A stretch of DNA of 64,000 nucleotides. Source: Candidatus Yaniella excrementavium. GTDB taxonomy: Bacteria; Actinomycetota; Actinomycetes; Actinomycetales; Micrococcaceae. Numbering within the stretch: position 1 is the first letter of the stretch; each line of letters begins with the position of its first letter. The notes beneath the pieces were generated by a model. The model saw nothing but the letters and a program-made list of their open reading frames with translations, was not told the DNA's origin and did not search any database. The position numbers were made by a program, and so were the translations under genes. The stretch covers positions 58,067-122,066 of the forward strand of contig DXCT01000085.1 in assembly GCA_019115865.1 (NCBI GenBank), given 5' to 3'. Below are positions 14,302-29,306 of this stretch, piece after piece.

Positions 14302-16407
14302 GTGGTCAGACAATCCGAGTACAGTGCACGAAACCTCTCAGTCCTTGAAGGGCTTGAAGCGGTGCGTAAACGCCCGGGCATGTATATCGGGTCCACCGAC
14401 TCCCGGGGACTCATGCATTGTCTCTGGGAGATCATCGACAACTCAGTCGACGAGGCGCTTGGCGGTTACGGCCAATCGATAGACATCACCTTGTATGCTG
14501 ATGGCTCGGTTGAAGTCTCAGATAATGGCCGTGGTATTCCCATCGATATTGAACCGCGCACGGGTTTGTCAGGTGTGGAAGTTGTCTTTACCAAACTCCA
14601 TGCCGGCGGCAAATTTAGTTCTGATTCATATGCTGCAGCAGGCGGCCTGCACGGGGTAGGCGCCGCGGTCGTCAATGCACTGTCGTCACGTTTGGATGTA
14701 CAAGTAACTCGTGGCGGAAAAATATATCAACTTAGTTTCAAACGTGGCCAACCGGGACAGTTCATCGATCAGGGAAAACCCAGCGCAGATAGCACCTTCG
14801 AAGCTGTCAAGTCCGGATCAGAGGTCGATGTTGTTGGAAAAGCTAAGCGCGGTACAACTGGAACAACAGTGCGCTACTGGGCCGACACACAAATTTTTAC
14901 TCCTGATGCAACTTTTTTGTATGAAGAACTTGAACAACGTGCCCGGCAAACAGCCTTTCTCGTTCCAGGTCTGCGCATTACAGTTCGCGATGAGCGTCGA
15001 CTCACCGGAACAGCAGGAGAAAACGGTTCTCATCAAGAAGTATTCCAGTATGACGGGGGCATATCAGAATTTGTAGATCACCTGTCGCAGCTTAACCCGG
15101 TTACAGATGTATGGCGTCTGCATGGTGAAGGGAACTTCAGTGAACGCGTACCTGTCCTCGACAGCTCAGGGCAAGCTCACATGCAGGATGTTGAGCGTTC
15201 TTGTGAAGTCGATGTGGCTTTGCGCTGGGACGTCGGCTACGACACCAAAATACGAAGTTTCGTCAATATTATTGCCACCCCAAAGGGCGGATCTCACAAC
15301 ACCGGATTCGACCAAGCACTGACCAAAGTATTCCGCAAAGCCGTCGAAGCCAATGCTCGCCGTTTGAAAGCTGGAAACGATCGCGTCGAGAAAGACGACA
15401 TTCTTGCAGGCCTGACAGCAATAGTGACTGTTCGGTTGGCCGAACCACAGTTTGAAGGACAAACGAAAGAGGTGCTCGGCACCCCTGCGGCACGGCAGAT
15501 TGTTTCCAAGGTTGTTGCTGACCAGCTCACGGACATTTTGCAGTCACGTAAGCGCGCTGTGAAGCAACAGGTGGATGGACTATTAGAAAAGATCGTGGCC
15601 GAGATGAAGTCGCGCATCATGGCGCGGACGGCCAAAGAGACCCAACGTCGAAAGACCGCTTTAGAGACCTCTTCCATGCCTGCAAAATTGGCGGACTGCC
15701 GGTCGACATCGGTTGAAAATACTGAGTTATTCATTGTCGAAGGGGACTCAGCGCTGGGTACCGCGAAACTTGCGAGGTCTTCAGACTATCAAGCGTTGTT
15801 ACCCATTCGAGGGAAAATTTTGAACGTGCAGAAGGCATCAGTGGGCGAAATGCTCAGTAACGCCGAAGCCTCTGCGCTAATCCAAGTTGTTGGTGGGGGA
15901 TCAGGACGTAGTTTTGATATGGAATCGGCCCGCTATGGCAAGGTCATCTTGATGACCGACGCTGACGTCGACGGAGCCCATATTCGAACACTCCTGTTGA
16001 CCTTATTCTTTAGATATATGCGACCTATGGTAGAGGCTGGACGCGTTTATGCTGCCGTTCCGCCATTACATCGGGTTGAAGTCATCAACCCAGGTTCTAA
16101 GGCTAATGAAGTCATCTATACCTATGCTGAACACGAACTGCATGAAGTTCTAGAGCGTGTAGAAACTGAGGGTCGCAGAATTAAAGAGCCGATCCAACGA
16201 TACAAAGGTCTTGGTGAAATGGACGCGGATCAGTTGGCAGAAACAACCATGGATCCGGCTCAGCGGACACTTCGTCGGGTGAATATTGAAGAAGTGGAAA
16301 AGGCCGAAGAAATCTTTGAACTGCTCATGGGTCGTCATGTCGCACCTCGGCGAGACTTTATCATCTCGGGCGCAGAAGAACTCGACCGTCAGCAAATCGA
16401 CGCTTAG
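14302..16407 (+). CDS. parE: DNA topoisomerase IV subunit B (ParE / GyrB-like ATPase)
   Basis: The track ORF starts at 13867, but homology begins at SEYSARNLSVLEGLEAVRKR; the GTG at 14302, with GAAAGG upstream, gives 701 residues and the usual N-terminus. GHKL ATPase motifs are present (IIDNSVDEA, DNGRGIP, GGLHGVGAAVVNALS, and the QTK-type Lys in QFEGQTKEVLG). TOPRIM motifs are also present (EGDSALGTAK, LMTDADVDGAHI), as is the C-terminal RYKGLGEMDADQLAETTMDP. It pairs with ParC (29312-31843) to relax or decatenate DNA. Its stop overlaps the convergent oleD stop. Confidence 0.93.
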   Translation: MVRQSEYSARNLSVLEGLEAVRKRPGMYIGSTDSRGLMHCLWEIIDNSVDEALGGYGQSIDITLYADGSVEVSDNGRGIPIDIEPRTGLSGVEVVFTKLHAGGKFSSDSYAAAGGLHGVGAAVVNALSSRLDVQVTRGGKIYQLSFKRGQPGQFIDQGKPSADSTFEAVKSGSEVDVVGKAKRGTTGTTVRYWADTQIFTPDATFLYEELEQRARQTAFLVPGLRITVRDERRLTGTAGENGSHQEVFQYDGGISEFVDHLSQLNPVTDVWRLHGEGNFSERVPVLDSSGQAHMQDVERSCEVDVALRWDVGYDTKIRSFVNIIATPKGGSHNTGFDQALTKVFRKAVEANARRLKAGNDRVEKDDILAGLTAIVTVRLAEPQFEGQTKEVLGTPAARQIVSKVVADQLTDILQSRKRAVKQQVDGLLEKIVAEMKSRIMARTAKETQRRKTALETSSMPAKLADCRSTSVENTELFIVEGDSALGTAKLARSSDYQALLPIRGKILNVQKASVGEMLSNAEASALIQVVGGGSGRSFDMESARYGKVILMTDADVDGAHIRTLLLTLFFRYMRPMVEAGRVYAAVPPLHRVEVINPGSKANEVIYTYAEHELHEVLERVETEGRRIKEPIQRYKGLGEMDADQLAETTMDPAQRTLRRVNIEEVEKAEEIFELLMGRHVAPRRDFIISGAEELDRQQIDA

Positions 16408-17414
16408 GCCCCATAGTACTGCTGGGTCAATTGAAAGCCCTCTTCCAAAGAGATGCGGGGCTTCCACTGCAGGACTTGCTGGGTCCGACGCTGATCAAAC
16501 CAGTGCGCCGTTGACATTTGCTCAGCTAAGAAGCGCGTGATCGGCGGCTCGTCACCACGTGTTTCAGCGTCCCAGAGCGATTCGATAATGCTACCTGCGG
16601 TCTTGGCTAACCCTGAGGGAAGATCCAGGACGGGTTCTTTTGCCCCACCTGCTACGGCGATACGTCGAATCATCTCACCTATGGGGCGAGGCTGACCGTT
16701 GGTAAGGACCAGTGCCTCACCGTGAGTGGTATCGGCCGCGTGGACAGCAGTGACAATAGCTTCTACCGCATTGGCCAAAAAGAGGGTATCGACCAGCGCA
16801 GTCCCGCCATCTAACAGCGGTAATCGGTTTCGACGTGCCCGGTCGATAATACGTTCCGTCAGCTGGGTATCACCTGGTCCCCACATGAGGTGCGGGCGAA
16901 GGACAAGCACTCGAAACTCTGTTGAGTCAGCAGCAAGCGCTAAGAGCTCACCGGCGGCTTTTGTCGCTGCGTAGTTGCCGCGTGCAGTATCAGGGTCCGC
17001 AGGATCGGCATCGGCACCGATAATAGAACTACCGGAGTGCGCCACCGATGGCGAGGAAATATGTATCCAGCGTGACACTCCTGCTTCTTGTGCGGCCGTC
17101 AACATGGTGCGGGTGCCTTCAACGTTTACGTGTTCGTAGTCTTTTAGGGGCCCTGAGACGGATACCTTGGCAGCAATATGGACGACCGTGTCTATCCCTT
17201 GAACCGCACGATGGGCTGTTGCTGGATCGGTTACTGTACCTTGTATCTCGCGAACGCCCTCGAGCCCCGAGGCTGATCGTTGGAGTACTGTCACATCAGC
17301 ACCTGCATCCCGTAAAGCTTGTGCAACCCCGGAACCTAGAACACCCGACGCTCCTGTGACGAGTATGTTGTAACCGGTGAAGTCGTGTGGGACCCAGTAC
17401 ATTGAGCTAGTCAT
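16404..17414 (-). CDS. oleD: OleD, NAD(P)H-dependent 2-alkyl-3-ketoalkanoate reductase
   Basis: The ATG at 17414 (MTSSMYWVPHDF) overlaps the oleBC stop by one base (TGATG), so I prefer it to the 17459 start; this gives 336 residues. It is an extended short-chain dehydrogenase: NAD(P)-binding VTGASGVLGSGVAQAL, catalytic Ser in HISSPSVAHSG and YxxxK in NYAATKAAGE. In the Ole pathway OleD reduces the beta-keto acid made by OleA to a beta-hydroxy acid. The order oleA-oleBC-oleD on one strand supports the call over a generic 3-beta-hydroxysteroid dehydrogenase. Confidence 0.88.
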   Translation of the reverse strand: MTSSMYWVPHDFTGYNILVTGASGVLGSGVAQALRDAGADVTVLQRSASGLEGVREIQGTVTDPATAHRAVQGIDTVVHIAAKVSVSGPLKDYEHVNVEGTRTMLTAAQEAGVSRWIHISSPSVAHSGSSIIGADADPADPDTARGNYAATKAAGELLALAADSTEFRVLVLRPHLMWGPGDTQLTERIIDRARRNRLPLLDGGTALVDTLFLANAVEAIVTAVHAADTTHGEALVLTNGQPRPIGEMIRRIAVAGGAKEPVLDLPSGLAKTAGSIIESLWDAETRGDEPPITRFLAEQMSTAHWFDQRRTQQVLQWKPRISLEEGFQLTQQYYGA

Positions 17415-20224
17415 CACGGTGTGCTTGCCTTTCCTCCGGCCAGGACGTTCGTTGCCCACTGCGCAAGTAGGGAACGGTTGATTTTGGAGTTGTGCCGAAT
17501 ATCTACTGGTACTCTGTGGGTTACTAAGACAGCGGCGATGTCAATATCCGTAGCTGCCCTAACCTCATCGGTGAGATGGGTTGGTGCTAGGCCGGGTTTG
17601 ATGGAAGTGTCATGAGGTTCTATGACTGCCACGATTGCTTGTGTGCCCGTGGGTCCAACGCCAACTAAGGCTACGCGGTTGAGCGAGGAGATCCGTTGGA
17701 TATCGTCTTCTGGACCTCCGGGGCCCATGGCACCGGTCGGAGGTGTGATGATGTGTTGTGTGCGTCCTTCGATCCAGAGTCGACCCTGCTCATCAAAGTG
17801 ACCAATATCGCCTGTTCGATGCCATTGCAAACCGTCGACAGAATCGACACGGGTCTGCCGGTTAGTATCATATAGCTTGTCGTAGCCAGCCAACATGTGT
17901 GGCGTAGAAATGACGATTTCAGACAGTCTGTTGACGGCCTCGTCGCCTTCGACGAGTTGATCCGATGAGCGTCCCAGGGAATCCAGGGGCGCCATCGCGA
18001 CGCGGACCACGTCGAGAGGTTTGCCTACGCAGACGCCGCGATCAGTCCTATCGGCGATAGCGTGTTGCGTGTGATGATCGATATCTGAGACCAACAGTGA
18101 TTCTGTCATCCCGTATGGGGAATGAAATTCGGCGTTGGGTATGAGTTCCAACACCTCATCCATGAGGGGAACTGGTACGGGAGCACCCGCGGACAGCAAC
18201 ATTGAGATCTGCTCGAGGGCCCCGCGTTGTGTTGTGGTGAGTTCATGCGCTGTGTCCACAACGTTGCGCAGTGCGGCGGGGGAGGCAAAGACCATGGTGG
18301 CATCACCTGCTATAGCGGCCTGGGCCAGAGCCGTGGCAGTTAGTGTTGCAGGTTTGGTCACTGACATATTCGGAGTCACTGACGTGGCACCGATAGCTGG
18401 CCCGAGTAGTGCAAATGGCGCGAAGCCCGCTAGTAAACTGGATCCCGGGGCAACGTTGAGAGTGTGTTGGAGACGCTGAGTCAGCGCGGAAAGTTTCCGG
18501 TGGGTATATCGCACGCCCTTGGCAGGGCCTGTAGATCCCGAGGTGAACAGAATTGCAGCATCGTCTGCCGGGGCAGGATCAGGATGTTGTGCTGTTGAGC
18601 GGTATTTTTGACCGGCATAAGCTGATGCAAAACCGTACATCGACCCGCTGAGTCCAAGGACTTTGGTGGCGAGGGGGTCCATGGTTTTTACGCTCAGTCG
18701 TTTGCCCGGGAGATTTCCGATCCGAGCAAGAGAAAGTCCCGGTGTCTGACCAATAATCCATTGTGGTGCAGCAGATTTGATAGCGCGTGTCATGCCGTCG
18801 ACACCCAGACCAGCATCAGTGACGACTGCGACACCACCGACACGAAGCACAGCATAGAGGGCAGCGGTGAGATCTCTTCCAGGCTCGACCAACATGGATA
18901 CCCGGTCGCCCGGACGCATCCCAGCTTCTCTGAGACCTACAGCCATCGCATCAACCATCGACGATAGCTTGGCCCAGGTTACTTCGAACGGTTTGCCGTT
19001 GGCATCTTTGATGGTCATATCGACCATGGCCTTCGTCGTTGAATCGGACCACTGATCGAGAAAACTCCAGAGCGGAGAATATTGGCCTACCGCCTCGGAG
19101 CCTCGGACAGCAGCAGGGTCAGGGGTTGGTCTGGTGTCTCCATCAAGTTGTTGACGTATCCAACCGAACAGGGGCACAGAAATATCCCGGTCTTCGGCTA
19201 GTAGGTGACCAGCGGTGTTATACCGGTGGATCTCAACGTTGTCGAGTCGATGCAATAAATCGTGCTGATAGCGATCGAGGAAAACCGGGTCTTTGGCGCC
19301 CCATAGTAACAGGGTGGGCTTGTCGGTGGAGGCGAGCTGGTCGGCTACTTCTTGCAGTGTGGCATGCGAGCGATGACTATCAGTGGCTGGAATGTCCGCC
19401 ACAAAACCGCCGATTCCACCGCGCTCTGCGTGTCCACGGTAGGGCGCTTTATAGGCAGCTTTGATGGGTCCTGACAGTCCGGGATGTCCCAGAGCCAAGG
19501 TGGTGTCTAGGAAAGCGGGAGTCATGACAGTGGAGCCAGCTAGGACTGGACCAGCGAGGGCAGCTTGTAATGGTGCAGGGATTGCATCGGACTTATTATG
19601 CCAGACAGCTGTGTTGAGTGAGATCATGCCGGTCGGGTCAATTTTAGAACCGGCTGACCGCAGTTCTGCATTTGTCGCCCAGGCAAGTGAAATAATACCG
19701 CCCCAATCATGACCAAGGCTAAAGACTGGAACCTGAGTGGTATCGCTGATGAGTTCGTCGACGATCGCGTCGAGATCATAAACCCGTTGGGACAAGGTTC
19801 GATACGAAGTAGTGCTTGCAGTCGTGGAGGGCAGGCCTGAATGTCCGAGTCGCTCAGAGAAGCCCATGTCGAGTTGATCTGGAGCAATGACCCGGATAAC
19901 TGGTGCTTTGCCGGCACCTGGGCCCAGATCCACATTCCCTTGCGCGGCATCGATGCCTGCCTGGGCAATATGGCGCCATAAATAGGACCAGGTTGGGTTG
20001 CCATGGACAGCGATGACGATCGCATCGACGTCGTTGGGACCAACGCCGAGATCGTTTAGGGCTGGTCCCGTATCGAGCACGTGAAATTCGCGGACACCAT
20101 CACACGTGGTGGTTTCAATGATTCGAGACCACCGAGAATCCCAGCCCGGCAGCTGTTGCGGATCAAGTACTGAATGTGGGGTTTGCGCGGGCTTAGGGGA
20201 AATCATGGGGGAGGGGGTCACCAC
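17414..20224 (-). CDS. oleBC: OleBC fusion: beta-lactone decarboxylase plus beta-lactone synthetase
   Basis: The GTG start overlaps the oleA stop (GTGGTGA), implying translational coupling. Residues about 1-370 are an alpha/beta hydrolase of the haloalkane-dehalogenase type: oxyanion HGNPTWSYLW, Asp nucleophile in SLGHDWGG and acidic LLWGAKDP. Residues about 380-936 are an adenylate-forming enzyme with the P-loop LFTSGSTGPAKGVRYTH and the ATP-binding HRTGDIGHF. OleC activates the beta-hydroxy acid and closes a beta-lactone; OleB removes CO2 to leave a cis-olefin. Fused OleBC is known in actinobacteria such as Micrococcus. The linker holds no obvious domain. Confidence 0.9.
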   Translation of the reverse strand: MVTPSPMISPKPAQTPHSVLDPQQLPGWDSRWSRIIETTTCDGVREFHVLDTGPALNDLGVGPNDVDAIVIAVHGNPTWSYLWRHIAQAGIDAAQGNVDLGPGAGKAPVIRVIAPDQLDMGFSERLGHSGLPSTTASTTSYRTLSQRVYDLDAIVDELISDTTQVPVFSLGHDWGGIISLAWATNAELRSAGSKIDPTGMISLNTAVWHNKSDAIPAPLQAALAGPVLAGSTVMTPAFLDTTLALGHPGLSGPIKAAYKAPYRGHAERGGIGGFVADIPATDSHRSHATLQEVADQLASTDKPTLLLWGAKDPVFLDRYQHDLLHRLDNVEIHRYNTAGHLLAEDRDISVPLFGWIRQQLDGDTRPTPDPAAVRGSEAVGQYSPLWSFLDQWSDSTTKAMVDMTIKDANGKPFEVTWAKLSSMVDAMAVGLREAGMRPGDRVSMLVEPGRDLTAALYAVLRVGGVAVVTDAGLGVDGMTRAIKSAAPQWIIGQTPGLSLARIGNLPGKRLSVKTMDPLATKVLGLSGSMYGFASAYAGQKYRSTAQHPDPAPADDAAILFTSGSTGPAKGVRYTHRKLSALTQRLQHTLNVAPGSSLLAGFAPFALLGPAIGATSVTPNMSVTKPATLTATALAQAAIAGDATMVFASPAALRNVVDTAHELTTTQRGALEQISMLLSAGAPVPVPLMDEVLELIPNAEFHSPYGMTESLLVSDIDHHTQHAIADRTDRGVCVGKPLDVVRVAMAPLDSLGRSSDQLVEGDEAVNRLSEIVISTPHMLAGYDKLYDTNRQTRVDSVDGLQWHRTGDIGHFDEQGRLWIEGRTQHIITPPTGAMGPGGPEDDIQRISSLNRVALVGVGPTGTQAIVAVIEPHDTSIKPGLAPTHLTDEVRAATDIDIAAVLVTHRVPVDIRHNSKINRSLLAQWATNVLAGGKASTP

Positions 20225-21240
20225 TCTATTTCTAACATTGCAACATTGAGACCAGATCCCACACCCATCGTGAGGACCCGATCGCCTACTTCAAGAGAAC
20301 CAAGTTCACGCGCGAGCGTGATGGGAAGGGCCGCTGGCCCAATATTACCTAGCGAAGGAAACGTTGTGGGGATCTTTTTACTGTCGATCCCGGCGGATTT
20401 GATAATTGCATCGGTATGCATCTGCGATACCTGGTGGGTGATGTAACGGTCCATGTTTTGCCAGTTCCAGTCCGCAGGGGTGTCATTCCAGGCGTCCATG
20501 ACAAGGGCTAGACCGTGTTCAAGTAGGGCACCTGAATCGGTAATCATGCCGTTATGTCCACCCTGACATAACTGGTGGTGTTGGGTGCCTGCTCGTGTGA
20601 CGCCCCGAAGGATGCGGTGGCCTTCGGGATGCTGATCCGCGCGTCCCAAGACAGCTGCTGCAGCACCGGAACCGAGGGTGAGTGAGGCGAACTGCTCCAT
20701 GAAATTATCACGCGTGGTCTTGTCGGAATGCAGGTTGCGCAGGGTGGCTTCCTGCACCTGCTTGGCATCTTCTCCTGCCACAACAACGGCATAGTCGATT
20801 TGTCCGGCATCAAGAAGAGTTGAAGCAAGGTCCATGCCGTTGACGAAACCAAGGCAGGCGTTTGTGATATCAAAGTTCGTAGCTTTGGGAGATAAGCCCA
20901 TGGAATCGTGAATCTGAACGGAAACGGCGGGTTCTAATTCTGTTCGAGTAACCGATGTGTTGATCAGCAAACCTACGGCATCGGGGGCAATGCCCGCTTC
21001 CGCCAAGGCTTTGACTCCCGCTTGGGCGGCTCCAGCAACATAGTCCTGGGGAGTCTCCCACATGCGTCGAGCGTGTACACCGGCTACGCGTTCTAGGAGT
21101 CGCTTGGGGAGTCGTAGACGCTTGAGCACGGTAGCGAGACGGTCATCGAGCATATCGGAAGTGACTTCCACCGGAGCGGTCACTTCTACCACAGAAAGTA
21201 ATGCCGCGTTGTGGTGAATTGAAACCGCATTAGAACTCAC
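20218..21240 (-). CDS. oleA: OleA, thiolase-fold acyl-CoA condensing enzyme
   Basis: I choose the GTG at 21240 (MSSNAVSIHHNA, 340 residues) over the TTG at 21273 because it fits family length and has AGGAATGGA upstream. The thiolase fold is clear: catalytic Cys in DITNACLGFVNGMD, His in YITHQVSQMH, Asn in FPSLGNIGPAALP, and the EPA Glu in RTELEPAVS that distinguishes OleA from FabH. OleA performs non-decarboxylative Claisen condensation of two fatty acyl-CoAs, the first step to C25-C31 internal alkenes. It is the first gene of the operon, so control of olefin output probably acts here. Confidence 0.9.
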   Translation of the reverse strand: MSSNAVSIHHNAALLSVVEVTAPVEVTSDMLDDRLATVLKRLRLPKRLLERVAGVHARRMWETPQDYVAGAAQAGVKALAEAGIAPDAVGLLINTSVTRTELEPAVSVQIHDSMGLSPKATNFDITNACLGFVNGMDLASTLLDAGQIDYAVVVAGEDAKQVQEATLRNLHSDKTTRDNFMEQFASLTLGSGAAAAVLGRADQHPEGHRILRGVTRAGTQHHQLCQGGHNGMITDSGALLEHGLALVMDAWNDTPADWNWQNMDRYITHQVSQMHTDAIIKSAGIDSKKIPTTFPSLGNIGPAALPITLARELGSLEVGDRVLTMGVGSGLNVAMLEIEW

Positions 21241-21411
21241 GTTGGATTGTCCATTCCTGTTTATTCCGTTCAAAATTGGTAGCTAAAGCACCAACTTTTT
21301 GACTTGTCATAACTTACCAGCCTAGCGCGGATTGTAGCGCCATGCGATTTACGTGTGGGGCCTATCCTTGCAGCTTAGTTTTTCAAACGAGGAAGACATC
21401 CAGTGGTTTAT

Positions 21412-22383
21412 CTACAACAGGCTCACGGCCGCAGGCACTGTTATCAGCAGCCCGGCCGAGAGTATGACCAGGCTAACTCTACATGAGTCCAATGGTGTGT
21501 CTGGCGCTATGAGGCATCTGAGGCGCCGTGTAGCAACGGCAGTATATTGTGATTCTGCGCCCGAACGGGAATGTACAGTATCGGCGGCTGGATCGGCCAG
21601 GGTATGTGCCAGGGCGGCTTTGAGATCGCTGTGGTCGTGATCAGATAACGCAGCATCATCGGCCATGATCTCGGTCAGTTCGGTGACTTCATTGATTGCA
21701 GCACGGGTTGCAGGAAACCACGGTGCTGCTTTGTGCCACGCTTGAAACGCCAAACGTAACAGGTCGTGGCGTTGGGTCAGATGCGCTGACTCGTGAGCCA
21801 GGACAGCGGCGAGTTGTTTTGCCGATAATTCATCGAGTAGCCCCCGGGATACCACGGTTAGGGGCTGACTCATGGCGGGGAGACAATACGCCAACGGGTG
21901 TTCTACGGGCAGCACGCGTGTGTTGATGGCCGGTCGTGCTGCGTCTACGAGTTGGTGATCATGGTCTCCGAGGGAGGCAGACAAAACTTCGACGAATTCA
22001 CGGTGTTTCTTCCGCTGGCTAAACGTTGTATAGGTCGTGTGTATTAGTACTAGGGCAAGGTGTCCGAATATTATGCAGCCAAGTGTGACCGCGGCTAAGC
22101 CAAGAGGCGCCCACCGGTCATCCGCAAAGACCGCGTCTATGCTGCCAGCTTGCATGACGTGCCAGAGTTCTATGCTGGCACTGAGTATTCCGTTGCCGAA
22201 TGGTTGCAGCCCCCAGGTCAGTGGTGCGGTGACAAGGGCCAAACCGCCGCTGATACCAATGGCTTGCCACAGAATCAGTGCTGCACGGGGAGCTCGTGAT
22301 GGCCACTTGGCTTTTTGTAGCCACAGGGGGACCGGCCATGCGAGAAGGATGGCTAGGCATGCGAGAAGATAGGGGGTCAGCAT
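21412..22383 (-). CDS. M56 family (BlaR-like) membrane metalloprotease
   Basis: The 323-residue protein has a hydrophobic N-terminus (MLTPYLLACLAILLAWPVPLWL) and further helices to about residue 120. The zinc site HESAHLTQRHD follows, with a downstream Glu in EVTELTEIMADDAALS, and the last helix is near the C-terminus. It lacks the penicillin-binding sensor domain of true BlaR1/MecR1. Such proteins lie next to BlaI regulators across Actinobacteria and are thought to cleave the repressor on a signal. The gene starts 21 nt after the BlaI stop, so the two form one unit. The inducing signal is not evident. Confidence 0.85.
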   Translation of the reverse strand: MLTPYLLACLAILLAWPVPLWLQKAKWPSRAPRAALILWQAIGISGGLALVTAPLTWGLQPFGNGILSASIELWHVMQAGSIDAVFADDRWAPLGLAAVTLGCIIFGHLALVLIHTTYTTFSQRKKHREFVEVLSASLGDHDHQLVDAARPAINTRVLPVEHPLAYCLPAMSQPLTVVSRGLLDELSAKQLAAVLAHESAHLTQRHDLLRLAFQAWHKAAPWFPATRAAINEVTELTEIMADDAALSDHDHSDLKAALAHTLADPAADTVHSRSGAESQYTAVATRRLRCLIAPDTPLDSCRVSLVILSAGLLITVPAAVSLL

Positions 22384-22404: not shown

Positions 22405-22824
22405 CTAGCTGTCGCGGGATTGTAAAAGATTGCGAACGCGCCGGGCGTCGGAGGGTTCAATGCCACCGATGAAGCGAGCGAGTACGGCGTGTTTGTCAAC
22501 GGCTGAACCTAACACATCGTTTAAGAGCTGAACAGTGTGTTCCTCGCGGCTGGTTGCGGCGCTGAATTCGTGAGGACGGCGCGAGGAATCCTTGGTGACG
22601 AACCCTTTCTTACTGAGCCGACCGAGGACAGTAAGTACCGTGGTGATAGCTGGCTGGTTGTCTTGGCGTTGTGCCAGCGCATCGCGTACTTCGTTGGCGG
22701 TGAGCGACTCTGTGGAATCCCACAGTAAGTTCATAATCGCTTGTTCCAGTTCGCCCAATGAGGCCCCTTCGTAAATTCCTGTATTGAGTCCGGTGTGAGT
22801 GCAAGGTGTTTCGCTCAGTGTCAT
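22405..22824 (-). CDS. BlaI/MecI/CopY family transcriptional repressor
   Basis: The track begins at a TTG (22863) inside the likely promoter. The ATGs at 22842 and 22824 are better, and I use 22824 (MTLSETPC; about 139 residues), though this is not certain. The winged-helix domain is clear (SLGELEQAIMNLLW, LTANEVRDAL, TTVLTVLGRLSKKGFV), followed by the dimerisation helices and a C-terminal SDARRVRNLLQ. BlaI-type dimers bind inverted repeats with a TACA/TGTA core and are inactivated by proteolysis. Two matching repeats lie just upstream, between this gene and divergent cydA. It probably represses itself and may repress cydA. Confidence 0.88.
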   Translation of the reverse strand: MTLSETPCTHTGLNTGIYEGASLGELEQAIMNLLWDSTESLTANEVRDALAQRQDNQPAITTVLTVLGRLSKKGFVTKDSSRRPHEFSAATSREEHTVQLLNDVLGSAVDKHAVLARFIGGIEPSDARRVRNLLQSRDS

Positions 22825-22863
22825 GACCTTGAGACTCAACATACTAACGCAACAACAGTACAA

Positions 22864-22882
22864 TTTCTACAATGCGTAGAAA
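22864..22882. promoter_or_regulatory. Putative BlaI operator 1
   Basis: A perfect inverted repeat, TTTCTAC-5nt-GTAGAAA, lies next to the BlaI start. The TCTACA...GTAGA form fits the TACA/TGTA-type BlaI operator. Autoregulation is the likely role. Confidence 0.75.
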
Positions 22883-22908
22883 CATTCCAGGTGATCTCGG
22901 AATCTCGA

Positions 22909-22927
22909 TTTCTACATTGTGTAGAAG
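22909..22927. promoter_or_regulatory. Putative BlaI operator 2, overlapping the cydA -35 box
   Basis: TTTCTAC-5nt-GTAGAAG repeats operator 1 with one arm change, centred 45 bp away. It covers TCTACA (22911-22916), which lies 17 nt upstream of TATTAT (22934-22939), a plausible cydA -10. Binding here should block cydA transcription. Confidence 0.7.
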
Positions 22928-22939
22928 TGTGGTTATTAT
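22911..22939 (+). promoter_or_regulatory. Predicted cydA promoter
   Basis: TCTACA (-35, 4/6 match) and TATTAT (-10, 5/6 match) are spaced 17 nt apart. The leader to the cydA ATG is about 125 nt. Confidence 0.5.
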
Positions 22940-23068
22940 GACCCCTAGAGGTTGGTTGACAACCTGCCGCTGAGGTTCCAGCCGGTTCTATGCGCCGGTG
23001 AGTTAACCGTAGCGGGATTCTTTAGAGTTTCGAGCGTCGGCATTTATGCCGGTGGGAGAGGGGCCCAA

Positions 23069-24646
23069 ATGGATCCTCTTGAGGTAGCCCGGTGGCAGTT
23101 CGGTATAACGACTGTTTACCATTTCCTGATGGTGCCACTAACCATTGGCTTGGGCATTGTCTTAGTCGCGATGCAAACTGCATGGCATAGGACGGGCAAA
23201 GAACAATACCTGCGGATGACGAAGTTCTGGGGCAAAATCTTCATGATTAACTTCATCATGGGGGTTGCTACCGGGCTGGTCCAGGAATTCCAATTTGGTA
23301 TGGCATGGAGTGAATACTCACGTTTTGTTGGTGACGTATTTGGTGCCCCACTGGCCATGGAAGCTCTCATCGCATTCTTTTTGGAATCTGTCTTTATCGG
23401 CATCTGGGTATTCGGATGGGGACGAGTTCGTCCAAGAGTCCACCTTGCCGTGTTGTGGCTTGCTGTAGCAGGTTCCGTTGTCTCTGCATATTTCATCTTG
23501 GCCGCCAATGCTTTTATGCAGCACCCGGTTGGCGTGGAATATGTTGATGGCCGTGCCCAGATGGTAGATTTCTGGGCCGTCATGACGAACCCAACGTTAC
23601 TGATTCATTTCCCCCACACGATTTTTGGTGCACTTGCAGTCGCTGGCTCAATGCTGTTAGGGATCGGGTGGTACCACCTTTGGAAACGCCGTAAAGAAGG
23701 AATCGATACGGTGGATGACAATGGTTATGTCGTCGTTGGGTCGACCGGGTCTAAAGCCCGCGATGAGGTTGACTATAAAGGCTGGCGTTCATCGTTCCGC
23801 TGGGGCGGTTGGATCGCGATTGTCGCATTCTTGGGTACTGCGTTTACCGGCCATACGCAGGCACAGATGATGATCCATCAGCAGCCGCTAAAAATGGCTG
23901 CAGCCGAGGCAGCTTGCCACGATGGCACAGGCTTCTCGGTACTGTCGGTTGCAAGCCGCGATGGCGACGGCGCAACGACCTGTAACGACGTTGTTGGCGT
24001 GTTTGAGATACCTGGCCTGCTATCTTTCCTGGCGCATAATGATTTCACCACACCGGTTGAAGGCGTCAACACATTGATCCCGCAGTATGAGGAAGCTTAC
24101 GGTACTCACCTGCCGGATGATCCTCGATATGGCGAGCGCGCCGGTTCTGAAATCGAGTATCTGCCGATTATGGAGGTCACCTACTGGGGCTTCCGCCTGA
24201 TGATTACCTTCGGTGGCATCGCTGCTGTAGCAGCTGCATTGGGGTTATGGATTGGGCGAAAAGGCACGGTCCCACAGGATACGACTCTTATGAACATGGC
24301 GTGGCTATCCATCCTGGCCCCGTTTGCGGCCAACTCGGCAGGATGGGTCTTTACCGAGATGGGGCGTCAGCCCTTCACTGTGGCGCCAAATCCGGATCCG
24401 ACGGGTGTTGATCAAGTCTGGCAATTCACGGCAGCGGCCGTGTCGCCAGGAGTGACCGGACAAGAGATTATATTTTCTCTTATTGCGCTGACCTTGATTT
24501 ACGCATTGTTGTTAGTCGTTGAAGTCGTGTTGTTAGTCCGCTATACCAAGGGCGGGCACCCGGCAGGCATGCCCGAACTCTTGGCGGATGAAGAACAGGA
24601 TGATGACAATACGCCCTCGTCCGACGTGTTGTCTTTCGCATACTAG
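23069..24646 (+). CDS. cydA: Cytochrome bd ubiquinol/menaquinol oxidase subunit I
   Basis: The track starts at 22952, but the ATG at 23069 (MDPLEVARWQFGITT) begins at the conserved first helix and follows GGGAGAGG; 525 residues. It carries the haem-ligand His in TTVYHFLMVPLTIG, the EFQFGMAWSEYSRFVGD quinone/haem stretch, the FGAPLAMEALIAFFLES helix and GRQPFTV. The Q-loop is short. CydA reduces O2 to water using quinol with high oxygen affinity and does not pump protons. It is first in cydA-cydB-cydDC and divergent from the BlaI gene. Confidence 0.96.
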   Translation: MDPLEVARWQFGITTVYHFLMVPLTIGLGIVLVAMQTAWHRTGKEQYLRMTKFWGKIFMINFIMGVATGLVQEFQFGMAWSEYSRFVGDVFGAPLAMEALIAFFLESVFIGIWVFGWGRVRPRVHLAVLWLAVAGSVVSAYFILAANAFMQHPVGVEYVDGRAQMVDFWAVMTNPTLLIHFPHTIFGALAVAGSMLLGIGWYHLWKRRKEGIDTVDDNGYVVVGSTGSKARDEVDYKGWRSSFRWGGWIAIVAFLGTAFTGHTQAQMMIHQQPLKMAAAEAACHDGTGFSVLSVASRDGDGATTCNDVVGVFEIPGLLSFLAHNDFTTPVEGVNTLIPQYEEAYGTHLPDDPRYGERAGSEIEYLPIMEVTYWGFRLMITFGGIAAVAAALGLWIGRKGTVPQDTTLMNMAWLSILAPFAANSAGWVFTEMGRQPFTVAPNPDPTGVDQVWQFTAAAVSPGVTGQEIIFSLIALTLIYALLLVVEVVLLVRYTKGGHPAGMPELLADEEQDDDNTPSSDVLSFAY

Positions 24647-24681: not shown

Positions 24682-25701
24682 ATGGATGTTCTTCCAACGT
24701 TGTGGTTCATCCTCATCGCGGTGTTATGGATCGGATATCTGGTCCTCGACGGTTTCGATTTGGGCGTCGGCATGTTGATGAAGGGTTGGGCCAAAAACGA
24801 ATCTCAGCGACGCGTTCTGCTGAACTCAATCGGCCCCGTCTGGGACGGCAACGAGGTCTGGTTAGTGACTGCCGCAGGGGCAACGTTTGCTGCATTTCCG
24901 CATTGGTATGCTTCGATGTTTGCGGGATTATATATTCCGTTGACCCTTGCGTTGCTGGCACTGATTCTGCGCGCGGTATCAATTGAGTACCGCGGAAAAT
25001 CGCATAGTCAGACCGCACGTAACCTCTGGACATGGGCCATGGCAGGCGGTTCATTTGTCGCAGCTTTTATGATCGGTGCGATGTTGGCCCTGACGACCAC
25101 AGGCTTACCCCTGAATGAATATGGAGATCGTGTCGGCGGGCCGTTTGCCTGGTTCAATAGTTGGGCTGTCCTTGGCGGATTAGCAGTCGTTGGTATTTCT
25201 CTTGCCCAAGGCTGGGCCTTCTTGACACTGAAAACTCTGGGTGCGCCACGAGCCGCAGGCAATCGACAGCTTCGACGCTACTTACCGCTGTATTTCTTAC
25301 CGGCTGCCATCTGGGCGATCATGGTCGTACTGCGATATCCAAAGGTCTCCGCGTGGATCATGCTAACCATTGCAGCCCTGGGATTGATCGCTGCGTGGAC
25401 GGCGTCGGGCCGTGCCAAAGAAGGGCTGACCTTCACCGGCATGGTCGTATTCATCGTCTTCGGGGTTGGAGCAATATTTACAGCACTGTTCCCCAATGTT
25501 TTACCTTCAACGATCAATGAAGCATACAACCTTACCGTGGCAACAGCATCGTCGTCGGACTATACCTTGACAATCATGGCGATTGTCACCGCGATTTTCT
25601 TCCCGATGGTTCTGGCATATAGCGTGTGGAGCTACTGGATGTTCCGCCAACGACTCGGGGAACAGCACATTCCTGAGTCTGTTGTGGTGACCCCGGTTTG
25701 A
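24682..25701 (+). CDS. cydB: Cytochrome bd oxidase subunit II
   Basis: The 339-residue protein starts at an ATG 35 nt after cydA with GAAAGG upstream. It opens with LPTLWFILIAVLWIGYLVLDGFDLGVGML, the characteristic CydB first helix, then NSIGPVWDGNEVWL, and has eight to nine predicted helices. It supports haem d/b595 in CydA. Its stop overlaps the cydDC start by four bases (TTGA). The C-terminal QRLGEQHIPES tail is soluble. Confidence 0.96.
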   Translation: MDVLPTLWFILIAVLWIGYLVLDGFDLGVGMLMKGWAKNESQRRVLLNSIGPVWDGNEVWLVTAAGATFAAFPHWYASMFAGLYIPLTLALLALILRAVSIEYRGKSHSQTARNLWTWAMAGGSFVAAFMIGAMLALTTTGLPLNEYGDRVGGPFAWFNSWAVLGGLAVVGISLAQGWAFLTLKTLGAPRAAGNRQLRRYLPLYFLPAAIWAIMVVLRYPKVSAWIMLTIAALGLIAAWTASGRAKEGLTFTGMVVFIVFGVGAIFTALFPNVLPSTINEAYNLTVATASSSDYTLTIMAIVTAIFFPMVLAYSVWSYWMFRQRLGEQHIPESVVVTPV

Positions 25702-28700
25702 TACCGGAGCTCCCATCATCCCAGGCAGGACGCCGGGCACTTATTGGGCTCGGCGTCTTAGCCCTGTTCAAACTTGTCGGCTGGATCCTTATCGCCGTCT
25801 CGTTGGCACGAGGCATCGCACAGCTGGCGGCAGCATTACCAGCCTCGGATGCCGCACAACTGCTGCAACTACTCTTCGATTCGCCGCGTACAGCACCCGG
25901 CCTGATCGACACGCTGGTCGAATTCACGATGAGTACAGACTTCATGGTGACTCTGGGACTCGGGTTCGGCGGTGCCGTCTTACGCGGCCTGGCTGAATGG
26001 GGCCAGCAAGTCCTGGCTACCCGGGCAGCACTGGGAGAAAAAGAACATCTGCGACACCAACTGGTGCGTCACCGGCTTGCCGCAGCAGGGGCTCATACAG
26101 ATCGTGCCGGCGAAGACACCATCTTGGCTTCGCAAGGCCTTGACGGACTTGACGATTACTACACAGACTTTTTGCCCGCTTTGGTGTCCGCGTTGGTTAT
26201 CCCATTGGGCCTAGGGATCTGGATTTTGATTCATGACTGGTTGAGTGCTGCAGTGTTGCTGGCAACCATTCCGTTGATACCGCTTTTCATGATCCTCATT
26301 GGTCGGTATACGGAACACCGTGTAGAAGAAGCAGCCACCGGGTTGCATAAACTCTCGCACCACCTCTTAGAACTTGCTCGGGGTTTGCCCGTACTAGTGG
26401 GCCTACGACGTGCCGGGATGCAACGTCAAGCGCTACAGCAAGTCTCCGAGACGTATCAGCGCACCACCATGAACACCCTGAAGGCTGCTTTCATGTCCGG
26501 CCTGGCACTCGAACTGTTGGCATCGTTATCGGTGGCCATTATTGCCGTGGTCATCGGCGTTCGATTAGTCAACGGTTCTATGGACCTCTATCCAGGCATT
26601 ATGGTGCTGACACTAGCGGCTGAAGTGTACCTGCCGTTTCGGAACATCGGTTCAGCATTCCACGCTTCAGAAGACGGCGTAGAGGCGCTGAAACGTGCAA
26701 AAGCACACATAAACCAACCCATCCCAGACTCCATGGCAACAGTACTTGATGTTGACGCCGCTGACTCCACAGCGATTGAACTAGCACAAGTCAGCATCTC
26801 TTATAAGGCGCTCGAAGAAATACCCCAGAAGACTTCTACGGGGCCGGACTATTTGACCCCACAACAATTTTCAGCAGCACAACAAGCAGCCCGGGGCCAG
26901 TCGGTAGACAGTGATGACGGCTACCTGCCACAGTATGCCGTTGAGATACTAGACCCCGTCGTCACGAACATGAATTTACGTCTCGAGCCGGGGCAATATA
27001 CGGTCCTGGGAGGTGCATCCGGGACCGGGAAATCAACCCTGTTAGCAGCGATGGCTGGACTGCTAACAGTAGCCGAAGCGACCTTCGAAGGCTCCGTCCG
27101 CGGCTTAGTCTCCAAACCGACGACCTATCTTAGCCAACACCCAGTATTTGCATCACAGACCGTAGGCCAAGAATTAGCCATGGTCGCCCAGGGGACGAGT
27201 GCAGAGCATACCAAGCAGCACAGTGCTGTGCACATTGCCGAGCTCACCAGTACCGCGCTTGTCCACGCCGGCCTGCCGGAGACACACTCTTGGTACATTG
27301 ATGATCTTTCCCCGGGGGAGCGACGTCGTCTCGGCTTTGCTCGAGTGCTCATGCGATTACTGACAGCTAGTGCCCATGAAATGACCCGACAACCCTGGCT
27401 GGTGATACTGGATGAACCAACGGCCCATCTAGATCACACATCGGCAAGCCTGATACGCCAAGGGCTGCGCAAGCTGGCTGACGGCGTACTGCCAAACGGA
27501 CAACAACTTAACGTGATCCTCCTGGTCGCCTCACACGATCAGCTCGTTCACGCAGCAGCAGACCAGTTGCTCGGTAATGTCGTAGTGGCAGATGCCCCCA
27601 TCTGCGACGCTGAGCCGGTCGAACCCACTGCGACGGCCCCACCTTGGCAACAACAGCCAGTTACCGCGCACCCCACCCGACGGGTTCGCCTGCGTGATTG
27701 GTTACACTACTTACCCGTGAATAACGGGAAGTTTTTAGCCGGCATTGCTTGGGCTACAGCAGCGTTTCTGGCAGCAGCCCTACTGTCGGCACTATCTGGT
27801 TGGCTCATAGTGCAAGCAGCCTATGAGCCGCCCATCTTATATTTACTGGCAGTTATTGTTGGGGTGCGGTTCTTTGGCACCGGCCGTGCGGTCTTCCGGT
27901 ACGCCGAGCGGGTCACGGTCCATGACGCAGTATTGTCGTGGGCTAACCGTATCCGACTACGTGTCTGGGATGCACTGGGTTCACACGCCGTAGAATGGAA
28001 CCGGCTCACACGCTCAGGTGGGGCACTTTCGGTCCTGATATCAGACGTTGATCAACTGCGTGACGCTGTCCCCCGAGTGATCGTCCCCATTCCAGCGGCG
28101 CTCATCACCTGGGCACTGGCTACCGGCATCGTAGCCTACATGGCCCCGGGGTCATGGTGGCCTGCTGTCGTAGCCGGGGTAGCAGCGTTTATTCTTGTCC
28201 CGATCATTGTCCGGTTCGTTGAGGCACGTACGACCACGGCGCTTGCAGACCATCGCACAAGACTCGTGACCGCTACCTCCAGACTCTTCACCGCAGCGGG
28301 TGACATGGCAGCTAACGGCATGACGCATCGCGCCACCGACGACTTCGCTGCAATGGACACCCAAAACACCATCCCGTTGAAACGCAATGCCTTGGCCGCA
28401 GGGCTCGGCGATGGCCTGACGTCGTTGATCGCCGGTTGGGCGGCTGTCCAGACGCTGTGGGTAGCTATCGCCAACGGCATCTCAGCGCCCAACACCGCCC
28501 TGGTCGTGATGCTTATGCTTGCCATGGCCGAACCTTTCGGACGATTTAGCGAAGCTATGAAAGAAGCGCGCACGTTACATCACCAGCTTGGCAAACTGCT
28601 GCCGATGCTTGAACAAGTGGATGACCCTAGCAAGCAATGGGTGTCGCTGGAACAAACCAATGACTCTGGAATCGAGCGCATCAATCTAGACAACATCACG

Positions 28701-29306
28701 GTGTCCTATGGCAGTAATGGCCCTGAAGTTCTTGAAGGGTTGTCGATGCAGGCATTAAAAGGTGATTTTGTGGTGGTCGTCGGCCCTTCAGGGTCTGGAA
28801 AATCGACGCTTTTGGCAGTGCTACAGGGCTTTTTAGAACCCCAATACGGCACTTATACGCTCACGGGTGCCCAACGTAGCCCACACCAAGCGTTGCAACA
28901 CGTGGCCTGGTGCCCACAGGAAGCTTATCTTTTTGACTCCACACTGCGTTCCAATCTGGCCCTAGCTCGTGATCCGTCGCAACGGCCCACCGACGCCGAA
29001 CTTCACAACGTGTTGCAAACCGTTGGTCTTGGTGACTGGGTGGCCACGGCACCGCAGGGCCTTGACACTCGACTGGGTCCCTCGGGACATTTTATTTCGG
29101 GAGGACAACGCCAGCGTGTTGCCGTTGCCCGAGCCATCCTGGCAGACGCTCACGTTGTACTCCTGGATGAACCCACAGCACATCTGGGTGCCGACGAAGC
29201 AGCCGAGCTCATCGGGGATCTTAAGGCAGCACTTGCAGACAAGATCACCATTATGGTGACTCACGATCAGCGTTTCGTGGAAGCGGGAACGGCGGTGCAG
29301 TTATAG
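25698..29306 (+). CDS. cydDC: CydDC fusion: ABC exporter for cysteine/glutathione, cytochrome bd assembly
   Basis: The TTG start overlaps the cydB stop. The 1202-residue protein is two complete ABC half-transporters in one chain. Half 1 has a membrane domain (about 1-340) and a nucleotide-binding domain (Walker A GGASGTGKST, signature LSPGERRRLGFARV, H-loop VASHDQ). Half 2 has a membrane domain (about 670-960) and a second nucleotide-binding domain (Walker A GPSGSGKST, signature ISGGQRQRVAVARA, H-loop VTHDQ). The first signature motif is a degenerate form of LSGGQ. CydDC exports thiols to keep the periplasm or outer side reducing and is needed for cytochrome bd maturation. The fused form is usual in actinobacteria. 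Confidence 0.94.
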   Translation: MIPELPSSQAGRRALIGLGVLALFKLVGWILIAVSLARGIAQLAAALPASDAAQLLQLLFDSPRTAPGLIDTLVEFTMSTDFMVTLGLGFGGAVLRGLAEWGQQVLATRAALGEKEHLRHQLVRHRLAAAGAHTDRAGEDTILASQGLDGLDDYYTDFLPALVSALVIPLGLGIWILIHDWLSAAVLLATIPLIPLFMILIGRYTEHRVEEAATGLHKLSHHLLELARGLPVLVGLRRAGMQRQALQQVSETYQRTTMNTLKAAFMSGLALELLASLSVAIIAVVIGVRLVNGSMDLYPGIMVLTLAAEVYLPFRNIGSAFHASEDGVEALKRAKAHINQPIPDSMATVLDVDAADSTAIELAQVSISYKALEEIPQKTSTGPDYLTPQQFSAAQQAARGQSVDSDDGYLPQYAVEILDPVVTNMNLRLEPGQYTVLGGASGTGKSTLLAAMAGLLTVAEATFEGSVRGLVSKPTTYLSQHPVFASQTVGQELAMVAQGTSAEHTKQHSAVHIAELTSTALVHAGLPETHSWYIDDLSPGERRRLGFARVLMRLLTASAHEMTRQPWLVILDEPTAHLDHTSASLIRQGLRKLADGVLPNGQQLNVILLVASHDQLVHAAADQLLGNVVVADAPICDAEPVEPTATAPPWQQQPVTAHPTRRVRLRDWLHYLPVNNGKFLAGIAWATAAFLAAALLSALSGWLIVQAAYEPPILYLLAVIVGVRFFGTGRAVFRYAERVTVHDAVLSWANRIRLRVWDALGSHAVEWNRLTRSGGALSVLISDVDQLRDAVPRVIVPIPAALITWALATGIVAYMAPGSWWPAVVAGVAAFILVPIIVRFVEARTTTALADHRTRLVTATSRLFTAAGDMAANGMTHRATDDFAAMDTQNTIPLKRNALAAGLGDGLTSLIAGWAAVQTLWVAIANGISAPNTALVVMLMLAMAEPFGRFSEAMKEARTLHHQLGKLLPMLEQVDDPSKQWVSLEQTNDSGIERINLDNITVSYGSNGPEVLEGLSMQALKGDFVVVVGPSGSGKSTLLAVLQGFLEPQYGTYTLTGAQRSPHQALQHVAWCPQEAYLFDSTLRSNLALARDPSQRPTDAELHNVLQTVGLGDWVATAPQGLDTRLGPSGHFISGGQRQRVAVARAILADAHVVLLDEPTAHLGADEAAELIGDLKAALADKITIMVTHDQRFVEAGTAVQL

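Follow-up and report, generated by a model that had tools for sequence, protein, structure and literature searches.

Organization of the blaI-cydA Locus

The stretch of DNA that was analyzed (64,000 nucleotides of contig DXCT01000085.1 from Candidatus Yaniella excrementavium, hereafter the window) contained a gene for a BlaI-type repressor that is divergent from the cytochrome bd genes, an adjoining gene for a membrane protease, and two palindromes in the intergenic region. The genes, the operator sites, their conservation and co-occurrence with BlaI, and the genes behind them were read directly from the sequence. The features of the locus, with positions in the window, are the following:

21412..22383, minus strand: gene for a BlaR1-like membrane zinc protease (323 aa; HESAH at residues 197-201; PLAYC with Cys167)
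22405..22863, minus strand: BlaI-type repressor gene (PF03965, E 1.3e-19; longest frame 152 aa)
22865..22881, no strand: putative operator 1, blaI-proximal, TTCTACAATGCGTAGAA, kept in relatives
22910..22926, no strand: putative operator 2, cydA-proximal, TTCTACATTGTGTAGAA, overlapping the predicted cydA -35 box
22911..22939, plus strand: predicted cydA promoter (-35 TCTACA, 17 bp, -10 TATTAT; consensus scan)
23070..24646, plus strand: cydA, cytochrome bd subunit I (ATG at 23070; PF01654, E 7e-147)
24682..25701, plus strand: cydB, cytochrome bd subunit II (PF02322, E 3.2e-91; TIGR00203)
25698..29306, plus strand: fused cydD-cydC ABC exporter of 1202 aa (TIGR02857 and TIGR02868 above cut-off in one frame)

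The genome encodes a heme-copper oxidase besides cytochrome bd. Adjoining the protease gene, positions 16404-21273 of the window harbored a likely olefin-synthesis cluster, named by sequence reading only, with an OleA-like KAS III, a 936-aa hydrolase/AMP-ligase fusion, and an OleD-like reductase; the OleA-like gene still adjoins the protease gene in the closest relatives.

Palindromes and the cydA Promoter

The starts of the two palindromes (22865-22881 and 22910-22926) are separated by 45 bp; both lie between blaI and the divergent cydABDC genes, and the first extends to a perfect repeat with 7-bp arms, TTTCTACAATGCGTAGAAA (22864-22882). Two inverted repeats had been noted at this position in the preliminary description, and both are present; when the 247-bp intergenic region was dinucleotide-shuffled 2000 times, no matched pair of palindromes arose, whereas a single perfect palindrome with 7-bp arms appeared in 139 of the 2000 shuffles and is not extremely rare. 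Only four exact TTCTACRNNNYGTAGAA sites were found genome-wide, two of them in the blaI-cydA gap. The second palindrome had also been proposed to cover the cydA -35 box, which agrees with the consensus scan, as the predicted -35 hexamer TCTACA (22911-22916) is located inside it and is followed by a -10 hexamer, TATTAT, at 22934-22939. A TANNAT -10 hexamer was in register downstream of the operator in 7 of the 8 close relatives aligned.

Just past the predicted -10 hexamer, a further inverted repeat, AGGTTG-N5-CAACCT, occurs at 22949-22966, and in close relatives its bases change while the pairing is kept. As a general feature of the cydA leader, this hairpin was rejected; perfect 6-bp repeats were found in 6 of 37 loci as against approximately 6% of shuffles, and the hairpin is therefore at most a clade feature.

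The BlaI-Type Repressor and Its Protease Partner

The repressor scored 71.1 bits against the BlaI/MecI/CopY family profile (PF03965; cut-off 22.6). Its nearest solved relative was M. tuberculosis BlaI (Rv1846c), 2g9w (E 6.1e-26), with S. aureus BlaI far behind (5e-6). Because the homologues in alignment A1 start about 30 residues after the start of the longest frame, the true BlaI start is probably internal, for example at the ATG at 22842 or 22824. In S. aureus, BlaR1 triggers the cleavage of BlaI at N101-F102. The Phe aligned with F102 was invariant in alignment A1 and in further loci (profile alignment), which is consistent with release of BlaI via cleavage, and the C-terminal Cys-X-Cys of the CopY subfamily was absent from the BlaI proteins of alignment A1. 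Instead of the canonical TACA-N2-TGTA operator, the sites have TACR-N3-YGTA inside TTCTAC-N5-GTAGAA; the half-sites are the same as those of the BlaI family but are spaced one base wider (compare PMC7253601).

The protease has four hydrophobic segments (residues 2-20, 34-52, 96-114, and 298-316), with the protease part between the third and the fourth, and its HExxH motif (HESAH) in a four-helix membrane protein is that of BlaR1 and MecR1. A C-terminal penicillin-binding sensor domain was absent, as the 323-aa protein ends past the fourth predicted helix. Its score against Pfam M56 was 23.7 bits, below the cut-off of 31; M48 scored above its own cut-off, and an M56 match at E<0.01 was obtained in 23 of 30 orthologues. 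S. aureus BlaR1 entries took the first five places among the PDB fold matches of an AlphaFold2 model (mean pLDDT 87.8); the best E value was 9e-4 at a probability of 1.00, and the global TM-scores were low, at 0.35-0.38. The four helices, the end after the last helix, and BlaR1 as the top fold make BlaR1-like membrane zinc protease without a sensor the best name. The protein had previously been described as an M56 protease without a β-lactam sensor; the sensor is indeed missing and the closest fold is that of BlaR1, but the M56 assignment itself stayed below the Pfam cut-off. Furthermore, Cys167, which is part of a PxAYCxP segment some 30 residues N-terminal to HExxH, was invariant in all orthologues examined, including the Nesterenkonia proteins, and a cysteine of this type was missing from the protease paralogue of the same genome. 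We hypothesize a redox or metal role for Cys167.

The same genome harbored a second BlaI/protease pair (locus L001, genome G000, contig C77, 6816-7142), in which BlaI is about 33% identical to the cyd-linked BlaI, the protease is without the AYC cysteine, and TACTA-type repeats (TTACTATATAGGGTAGTAA) are located upstream.

Conservation of the Linkage and the Operator

Judged by the names of GTDB genomes, the window falls into the Yaniella/Enteractinococcus group of the Micrococcaceae. Among 80 named loci of relatives, the protease gene adjoined blaI in 78 and a divergent cydA was present at blaI in 58, while the operator was exact in 65 and had at most one mismatch in 78. The palindromes and the blaI-protease-cydA linkage, whose conservation the preliminary description had left to be checked, are therefore kept in relatives. 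The operator arms were kept and the central bases varied freely, a pattern as expected of an operator.

Across 121 genomes of the family, the exact motif was found at 357 sites (summed table), compared with 10 for a reversed control pattern. At least one exact site was present in 108 of the 109 genomes with a BlaI match and in none of the 12 without it (Fisher p ~1e-15, a value weakened by the relatedness of the genomes and by the restriction of BlaI losses to only three genera). A clear cydA match was retained in 7 of the 12 BlaI-less genomes and a fragment in an eighth; as these genomes mostly keep cydA yet contain no sites, site loss goes with loss of the repressor and not with loss of the oxidase. 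Two upstream operators were also found where cydA lies apart from blaI, in G042 and G067 (genus g13, probably Nesterenkonia) and likewise in G004 and G035, and g13 genomes without cydA retained blaI and other operator sites. The conserved position, the absence from BlaI-less genomes, and the presence at unlinked cydA support the earlier proposal that the palindromes are probably operators of BlaI.

Some genomes depart from this pattern. G091 contained a BlaI match but lacked an exact site. In genus g12, four genomes (G011, G041, G066, and G089) had one exact site each, and their only BlaI match was distant (about 33-35% identity). A record titled Sporosarcina beigongshangi (L218) carried an Arthrobacter-like version of the locus, which is probably due to contamination or a wrong label.

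Other Genes Preceded by the Operator

Outside the blaI-cydA gap, 78 loci with 81 sites were assigned to genes by a simple gene-calling script. Of these sites, 72 lay upstream of 18 gene families, and 66 of the 72 belonged to 12 families with two or more occurrences. Each of the six families with a single occurrence was defined by the neighbor of its own site, so that only the twelve recurrent families provide independent support. The most frequent targets were HemQ (23 loci) and flavohemoglobin (14 loci). Pyridoxamine-oxidase-like proteins, TlpA/ResA-like proteins, and cydA away from blaI were found four times each (the last as 4 sites in 2 loci), a truncated hemoglobin, a His-rich membrane protein, and a SufR-like protein three times each, and a 131-aa membrane protein, CopC, isocitrate lyase, and SdhC twice each. 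The six families seen once included HemA, AtpI, and SucC. HemQ, Hmp, CopC, HemA, ICL, PNPOx, TlpA, and SufR were named by Pfam or NCBIfam, whereas the truncated hemoglobin, SdhC, SucC, AtpI, and PCuAC were named by sequence reading, without a profile match. None of the assigned sites preceded a β-lactamase or a penicillin-binding protein.

In this genome, the other two exact sites are located upstream of HemQ and of the His-rich membrane protein; the gene for the latter is followed, at the end of the contig, by one whose product is probably a copper chaperone of the PCuAC type. Near matches to the motif precede two small membrane proteins, relatives of which have exact sites elsewhere.

Sites before genes for heme synthesis, copper handling, globins, cytochrome c maturation, and the TCA cycle give the appearance of a respiration-biogenesis regulon. 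The pair had initially been interpreted as a terminal-oxidase switch rather than a β-lactam resistance system. The operators at cydA and the lack of a β-lactamase target agree with this, but the many other targets make it too narrow, and from its persistence in genomes without cydA the system looks like more than a terminal-oxidase switch.

Three membrane-protein families located behind operators had no Pfam or NCBIfam match (L121 2493-3197, L007 1540-1899, and L013 1581-1976). Of these, the His-rich membrane protein is encoded beside copper genes and may represent a new kind of protein for handling copper. At L091, a gene for an Rrf2/NsrR-like regulator adjoins a flavohemoglobin gene that carries a BlaI-type operator, which suggests double control.

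Proposed Function and Alternative Explanations

A sensor-less pair beside the bd oxidase, together with sites at oxidase, heme, copper, and NO genes, indicates that the system most likely aids the cell when normal respiration fails. BlaI as a repressor and the palindromes as its operators are well supported by the comparative sequence evidence, and we regard a repressor-operator-protease system that acts on a respiratory regulon as quite probable. In the proposed mechanism, a dimeric BlaI-type repressor would bind TTCTACR-N3-YGTAGAA palindromes, and BlaI on both local sites would shut the blaI-protease operon and the divergent cydABDC operon, since the arrangement of the sites implies repression of both; the cydA-proximal operator, lying over the -35 box, would block it. 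The activated sensor-less protease would cut BlaI, probably before the invariant Phe aligned with S. aureus N101-F102, and this would derepress a heme/respiration regulon that includes cytochrome bd, HemQ, copper-handling proteins, globins, and others. We infer both repression and cleavage, and the release of BlaI by proteolysis is likely.

The targets would replace, rebuild, or protect the heme-copper (aa3) branch of respiration, and failure of this branch, whether through copper shortage, NO, cyanide, or low oxygen, would therefore be the likeliest trigger. We infer this signal from a set of targets that comprises an oxidase independent of copper together with genes for heme synthesis, copper handling, the maturation of cytochrome c, and NO detoxification. 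The iron-sulfur, TCA, and small membrane protein targets fail to converge on one signal, and the chances that failing heme-copper respiration is the specific signal are about even.

Another explanation is that BlaI controls the regulon but senses a ligand itself (metal, heme, or redox), as CopY does, with the protease not acting as the main switch. In its favor, CopY is a member of the same superfamily, and genes for copper handling are part of the regulon. However, a protease adjoining blaI in 78 of 80 loci, an invariant Phe at the cleavage position, and the lack of a C-terminal Cys-X-Cys in alignment A1 make this improbable, and on the last of these grounds CopY-type direct sensing of copper by BlaI was rejected. 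Still less credible is an ordinary β-lactam-resistance BlaI/BlaR pair located beside cydA by chance, with the palindromes serving blaI autoregulation and a β-lactamase elsewhere. BlaI and the protease do resemble resistance pairs, and blaC is repressed by M. tuberculosis BlaI (PMC5473688). However, the protease has no sensor domain, no assigned site precedes a β-lactamase or penicillin-binding protein, and operators accompany cydA even where it is unlinked from blaI. Regulation of a β-lactamase-like protein encoded on contig C14 of this genome was also considered and rejected, as that contig has no site among those listed. Rex controls cyd genes in Streptomyces and is encoded in this genome, but the notion that the palindromes belong to Rex or another respiratory regulator, with BlaI a functionless neighbor, is very improbable, since no Rex-like site was found near cydA, the palindromes are missing from BlaI-less genomes, most of which keep cydA, and TAC/GTA half-sites are those of the BlaI family.

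Relation to Known Systems

The closest characterized relative of the respiratory BlaI/protease system proposed here is the BlaI (Rv1846c)/BlaR (Rv1845c) pair of M. tuberculosis, which also has a sensor-less BlaR and cytochrome bd among its reported targets. Binding of M. tuberculosis BlaI to the promoters of cytochrome bd and ATP synthase has been reported (PMC5473688, citing Sala 2009; PMC12565901). BlaI binds and represses Rv1303, the leader gene of the atp operon (PMC12565901), and the way in which the sensor-less BlaR responds to β-lactams is described as unknown (PMC5473688). Operators at cydA, atpI, hemQ, and other genes in the genomes studied here would support respiratory control of the M. 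tuberculosis type. The present system differs from that of M. tuberculosis in the divergent orientation of blaI and cydA, in its TTCTAC-N5-GTAGAA operator, and in having hemQ, hmp, and copper genes among its candidate targets, none of which was found to be a β-lactamase. The BlaI/BlaR1 and MecI/MecR1 systems of S. aureus share the repressor family, the topology and fold of the protease, the two operators, and the Phe at the cleavage position, but here the penicillin-binding sensor is missing, the sequences are distant, the half-sites are one base further apart, and the targets are respiratory and not resistance genes. The copper-export repressors CopY and CopR also belong to PF03965 and recognize TAC/GTA-type half-sites (PMC7253601 gives RNYKACANNYGTMRNY); they differ from the system described here, which has no C-terminal Cys-X-Cys, no adjacent copper exporter, and a protease partner.

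In a sigC mutant of M. tuberculosis under copper limitation, cydABCD, atp, and icl rise together, a response that was not ascribed to BlaI/BlaR in that work (PMC7924339); in the genomes studied here, operators precede genes with these functions. Among open-licence PMC papers, none was found that describes the operator or the regulon for actinobacteria. The system is made of known parts and would serve a different and broader regulatory purpose. Its conserved operator and coherent heme, copper, and oxidase targets in harmless relatives offer a concrete and testable answer to the question of what the sensor-less BlaR of mycobacteria responds to, and would also reveal the way in which two oxidase branches are coordinated in many actinobacteria. 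Cytochrome bd contributes to the tolerance of drugs that hit respiration, such as clofazimine in M. abscessus (PMC8765290), and its on-switch is therefore of practical interest. The ancestral job of BlaI/BlaR in actinobacteria may have been to watch the respiratory chain, with the sensor-less protease directly reading the heme-copper branch, perhaps via Cys167, and cutting BlaI to turn on cytochrome bd, heme synthesis, copper handling, and NO defense, and with β-lactamase control in mycobacteria as a later addition; we put this combined scenario forward tentatively and lean somewhat against it as a whole.

Distribution among Other Actinomycetes

A survey of 198 class-level genomes revealed blaI-protease-cyd linkage with an operator in families f4 and f21, both with the TTCTAC form, and in f30, where the form was TACTAC-N5-GTAGTA. 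An operator was located before cydA in f20 and f38 and before a separate cydDC in f4, and sites preceded CopC, Hmp, TlpA-like, and 119-aa membrane proteins in f21 or f20. At two BlaI-protease loci of family f7 that look mycobacterial, the AYC motif of the protease was also present and the exact motif upstream of blaI was absent. Four f21 loci (L247, L253, L255, and L257) had operators beside a cydA only about 26-32% identical to the CydA of this genome, which suggests that a bd-type oxidase of divergent sequence is controlled in the same way.
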